A stretch of DNA of 34,293 nucleotides from a virus: positions 1 through 34,293 of IMG/VR virus record IMGVR_UViG_3300005617_000842. One strand, 5' to 3'. The notes beneath the pieces were generated by a model, which did not search any database, was not told the origin of the DNA, and saw only the letters and a list, made by a program, of their open reading frames with translations. The translations under genes and the position numbers were made by a program. Positions 19,094 through 19,130 of this stretch are shown here, one piece after another; position 1 is the stretch's first letter, and each line of letters opens with the position of its first letter.

Positions 19094-19130
19094 CTCAGAA
19101 CTTCTCAGTAAAACTCAGTAATCCTCAGAA
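19094..19130. repeat. Four heptamer direct repeats phased at 10 bp
   Basis: Plus-strand CTCAGAA, CTCAGTA, CTCAGTA, CTCAGAA begin at 19094, 19104, 19114 and 19124, exactly 10 bp apart with three-base spacers. The two outer copies are identical to each other, as are the two inner ones. They lie in the 66-base gap before the genes leading into terS. One face of the helix would present all four, a typical protein-binding layout. Confidence 0.8.

Follow-up and report, generated by a model that had tools for sequence, protein, structure and literature searches.

A phased array of four heptamers ahead of the packaging genes of an orphan contractile-tailed phage, tentatively read as a late-operon operator

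The window, by which we mean the whole stretch of 34,293 bases analysed, is a virus record without end repeats. Its genes are arranged as in a contractile-tailed phage and are nearly all directed leftward; between position 1 and 21.6 kb every one of them is. Head and tail genes fill the first part (1-16.7 kb), with the capsid gene at 11805-12734, a Mu-F-like gene at 14534-15406 and the portal gene at 15273-16748. The gene of the terminase large subunit, terL, lies at 16745-18208 on the minus strand (phrog_38, Terminase_6C), and the terminase small subunit domain, terS, at 18180-18695 on the same strand (phrog_51, weak Terminase_2), in a reading frame that extends upstream, without a stop, as far as an ATG at 18818. 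Three short minus-strand ORFs occupy the region above terS: one of 63 codons with a Zn-ribbon-like CxxC ... CxxC pattern (18686-18877), one of 60 codons with no family match (18887-19069) and, on the far side of a 66-bp gap (19070-19135), one of 101 codons (19136-19441), whose product is basic (pI 10.6), contains a hydrophobic stretch and gave neither a family match nor a recognisable DNA-binding domain. Farther along we found a Mom-like gene (19855-20724), a ParB-like gene (20648-21271), a methyltransferase gene (23403-24206) and the O-type initiator gene repO (24530-25426), beyond which lie NinB, SSB and ERF genes. Two tRNA genes are encoded on the minus strand: tRNA-Met(cat) at 21637-21713, and tRNA-Gly(acc) at 19874-19951, which runs into the 3' end of the Mom-like ORF in its listed extent. 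No integrase was detected among the ORFs scanned in this possibly incomplete record. Three imperfect 30-bp iterons with the palindromic core GGGGAGAATTTGCCCC lie inside repO (25004-25133, minus strand); they show the strongest 10-bp AT/GC periodicity in the window and are likely a lambda-type origin.

By our hand-made gene list, no ORF-free stretch from position 1 up to the tRNA-Met gene at 21.6 kb is longer than the gap at 19070-19135. The preliminary description had called it the only gap upstream of the packaging genes, which overstates the case: it is the longest, but other gaps exist. Of its 66 bases, 37 are taken up by an array of four heptamers (19094-19130), CTCAGAA-ctt-CTCAGTA-aaa-CTCAGTA-atc-CTCAGAA, with an exact 10-bp period; on the coding (minus) strand it reads 5'-TTCTGAG gat TACTGAG ttt TACTGAG aag TTCTGAG-3'. 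The array does not lie directly upstream of terS as had been proposed, since the 60- and 63-codon ORFs intervene and the terS domain begins only near 18700; the distance to this domain is about 400 bases, while the start of the 60-codon ORF, the first gene past the array, is 25-61 bases away. The 24-base segment between array and start codon (19070-19093, minus strand), AAATAGGGGAAAAGGGAAAAAACC, contains a Shine-Dalgarno-like GGG. Near the array, the coding strand showed no sigma-70-type promoter by a sigma-70 model that may not be that of the host, and neither an internal terminator nor a promoter that would isolate the 60- and 63-codon ORFs from the operon was found. At the RNA level, folding at the array is unremarkable (z = -1.43) and Rfam gave no match.

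All four heptamers are present in the 10-bp phase first described, and such an arrangement goes far beyond what shuffled sequence yields. The array occurs a single time in the 34,293-base record, with lone heptamer copies scattered elsewhere. Neighbouring heptamer pairs with at most one mismatch number three in the window, where shuffles predict 0.06, and this is the one place with four copies in which five or more adjacent columns agree, whatever the period between 8 and 24. In dinucleotide shuffles, arrays of this kind turned up at 0.01 per record, and 100 shuffles gave not one at period 10. With bases treated as independent, the expectation is 7e-4 for five columns when all 17 periods are allowed, and 7e-7 when the period is 10 and six columns are invariant. 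The spacers ctt, aaa and atc bear no resemblance to one another, thus recent tandem duplication or slippage is not the source of the array. Hence the array exists and is either constrained or, at the least, more than a product of chance. The outer/inner symmetry seen earlier in the heptamers comes down to a single A/T position (A, T, T, A) with a chance of 1 in 4, and the multimeric ring or paired dimers deduced from it are not supported. CTNAG is rare across the window (42 found, 76 expected from dinucleotides), and four of the 42 lie in the array. CTCAG and AT-rich half-turns alternate, and the predicted curvature at the array reaches the 98th percentile of the window; this predicted bend would fit wrapping and equally a bent promoter region.

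TerS had no match among 50,697 phage records, and the 101-, 60- and 63-aa ORF products had no relatives in the same collection. The best identity of TerL was 32.5% in the phage collection, and among viral contigs it was 35%; the capsid protein reached 58%, at loci where TerL identity was near 30%. Close relatives were found neither by TerL, TerS and portal in the viral contigs nor by TerL in the genome contigs. Judged by these identities, the phage is an orphan within the collections searched, from which near-identical records may be missing. TerL did not match any solved structure, and a TerS structure predicted from the single sequence (pLDDT 58.5) was too poor for use.

Arrays of at least four copies of a core of at least five bases, spaced 9-12 bp apart, were sought de novo in 191 distant relatives, and three non-coding ones were found (L079, L107 and L163). 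The arrays of L079/L232 and of L311/L312/L314 resemble that of the window in having a heptamer-like core and in being non-coding and ahead of terS, where they lie between a small regulator-like ORF and terS; they differ from it in their step of 11 or 12 bp and in sequence, and the phages are unrelated. In L079 (303-680), GTGCACATC is repeated four times at 11 bp between terS and an ORF of 115 aa that directly precedes the array and contains the C-terminal HTH domain of DnaA (E = 5e-5). The phage L232, whose TerS is 74% identical, has an altered array, GTGCATATC, in the same place (about 2300-2420). Both repeats look like a DnaA box on the opposite strand, and a stand-alone DnaA domain IV may act as a late regulator. 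In L107 and L311, TTTGCCG recurs at 12 bp after a Bro-N ORF and is followed by terS. L312 and L314 share a 575-bp block holding the array with 97% identity, and their downstream TerS genes are of different types; L315 and L316 carry the TerS type of L312 (85% DNA identity) yet have no array. The recombination joint between array block and terS is clean (L312:1101-1700, L314:500-1000, L311:2900-3080, L315, L316). By this comparison, the array in the L107 family, which includes L312 and L314 and is the one family in which array and TerS were seen to recombine, is inherited with the upstream Bro-N block and not with TerS.

A search for the same repeats before terS in relatives had been suggested. 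Similar phased arrays are present there in distant phages, but they are not enriched: strict arrays upstream of TerL were suggestive at first, and the enrichment vanished per non-coding base (2 loci in 33 kb, compared with 4 weak loci in 49 kb). Matches to the exact pattern numbered 34, with TerL nearby in 2 of about 18 lineages, which is the chance level by our own estimate. In six records (L003, L011, L024, L026, L027 and L033), CTCAG[G/A]A arrays of both orientations, with a step of 10 bp, surround repeated motifs that look like promoters (TTTGGCATAATCTTTGCA type); these arrays are located a few hundred bases past the 3' end of terL, perhaps at the genome end. Sigma-54-like promoters beside the CTCAGNA arrays of L003 and L011 were considered as a model for the window and rejected, as this phage group has a different TerL arrangement and the motif is absent from the window coding strand. 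In L031 (6-70), six CTCAGAAAAC units at exactly 10 bp stand at the contig start, about 900 bases upstream of terL, and end in the palindrome CTCAGAATTCTGAG. In L057 (4100-4300), GTAAC/GTTAC repeats are densely packed in both orientations, with a Toprim/AAA primase-helicase-like gene on one side of them and the terminase genes on the other.

Among known systems, the closest architecture by analogy is the four-repeat late-activator site of the phages TP901-1 (Alt) and phi13 (Ltr). In the Lactococcus phage TP901-1, four imperfect direct repeats at -76 to -32 are bound by the activator Alt, and in the Staphylococcus phage phi13 the late promoter driving terS/terL requires four repeats located between -107 and -42 (PMC13123087). 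The Alt operator resembles the window array in consisting of four direct repeats, clustered once in the genome ahead of the terS-terL late operon, and in its dimensions, 45 bp for the four or about 11 bp each; the repeats of the phi13 late promoter P23 likewise precede the packaging and late genes. The likeness does not extend to every detail. The Alt repeats are imperfect, and the scan for four phased heptamers missed them in TP901-1; alt itself lies directly upstream, ahead of terS, with the promoter after the repeats, and the host type differs from that of the window phage. The Ltr repeats are 18 bp long with a period of 18 and sit within the coding end of the regulator gene. The Alt and Ltr repeats stop 32-42 bp before the transcription start. 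In the window only 24 bases separate the array from a start codon, so that an activated promoter of the standard kind would either share bases with the array or enter the 60-codon ORF.

With confidence somewhat short of even, we favour the reading that the array is the operator of a cooperative phage regulator controlling the late operon. A multimeric transcription regulator would bind the array and control the packaging, head and tail genes that run leftward from it. Since the four direct-repeat half-sites share one helix face, adjacent subunits could bind side by side, and the bound subunits would contact RNA polymerase or one another. By analogy, the most likely mode is activation of the kind that Alt and Ltr exert in Gram-positive phages; repression of a promoter overlapping the array by the bound protein is possible. 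The operator reading draws on repeats that exceed chance, with conserved cores and random spacers, on the single array per record in the gap before the late genes, on the phi13 and TP901-1 precedents of four repeats ahead of terS, and on the phased arrays of distant relatives, which adjoin small DNA-binding genes (the DnaA-HTH ORF of L079 and the Bro-N ORF of L311/L312) and, in the Bro-N case, go with the regulator block and not with TerS. Its main weaknesses are the mere 24 bases to the start codon and the failure to find a sigma-70-type promoter near the array or a regulator. The upstream 101-aa ORF product, basic but with no recognisable DNA-binding domain, also speaks against it, as do the analog families, which are unrelated in sequence to this phage, and the want of close relatives in our searches. 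Of the earlier suggestion of activator sites for late transcription, a putative protein-binding array ahead of late genes is well supported.

The array could also serve as the operator of a repressor or autoregulator, for instance of the ribbon-helix-helix or HTH type, acting on the 60- and 63-codon ORFs only and not on the whole late operon. Several families of small repressors typically use short direct iterons spaced by one turn, and the array occupies the place before the 60-codon ORF where a core promoter would sit; however, no regulator was found, and these ORFs show no terminator or promoter sign that would set them apart, so that we regard this local role as unlikely, if worth keeping in mind. 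Similarly unlikely is the proposal that the array is the TerS packaging (pac) site, marking the place of the first packaging cut, with each HTH domain of a TerS ring contacting one heptamer per turn as the DNA wraps. Its position ahead of terS and the one array per record agree with this, and the high predicted curvature recalls the bent pac DNA proposed for SPP1 and SF6 (PMC4737164), phages in which direct repeats and bent DNA likewise lie near terS and TerS has an N-terminal HTH. However, the direct repeats of SPP1 pac span the terS promoter and start codon (PMC4737164), while the window array stands about 400 bp from the terS domain, two ORFs away from it, and does not overlap its start. 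The DNA-binding domain of SF6 TerS reads shape and has little sequence specificity (PMC4737164); a sequence-specific packaging start in the window, with each HTH of the ring reading one heptamer, would depart from the shape-based SF6/SPP1 mode and is more doubtful still. Moreover, the L312/L314 array followed its Bro-N block while TerS was exchanged, and the TerS type of L312 also occurs in phages that have no array, which by analogy counts against a TerS site in the window. Arrays of this kind show no enrichment ahead of terminase genes either. The packaging site first suggested for the array has no direct support.

A role in RNA, either as an element in the leader of the 60-codon ORF or as a three-frame stop, appears improbable. 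The array does lie in intercistronic RNA near the ribosome-binding site, and each CTGAG holds a TGA that the 10-base step places in all three frames, but neither function needs exact helical spacing, and the unremarkable folding and lack of an Rfam match point the same way. Slightly harder still to credit are short repeats associated with terminal repeats or genome ends, replication-origin iterons or integrase arm sites. Such roles would be in keeping with the heptamer arrays that share this core and a 10-bp step near TerL in a phage family of another type (L003/L011/L027), and with the L031 array at a contig start ahead of TerL. Against them, the record has no end repeats and the TerL proximity of pattern matches is at chance level; iterons inside an O-type initiator gene, the usual lambda-type origin, are what repO has in its own three 30-bp copies and not what the array is; and arm sites lack an integrase among the ORFs scanned, with the reservation that the record is possibly incomplete. 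To any role other than these we assign a very small residual chance.

Should the array prove to be a TerS site, the packaging start would here be written as a readable, phased code, which is rare. The array of another family that follows a Bro-N block rather than TerS calls for caution in labelling repeats before terS as "pac sites". The phased array before the packaging genes resembles switches already known in other phages, and if the array is such a late switch, it would provide a compact operator for a phage lineage that has no close relative in the collections searched.
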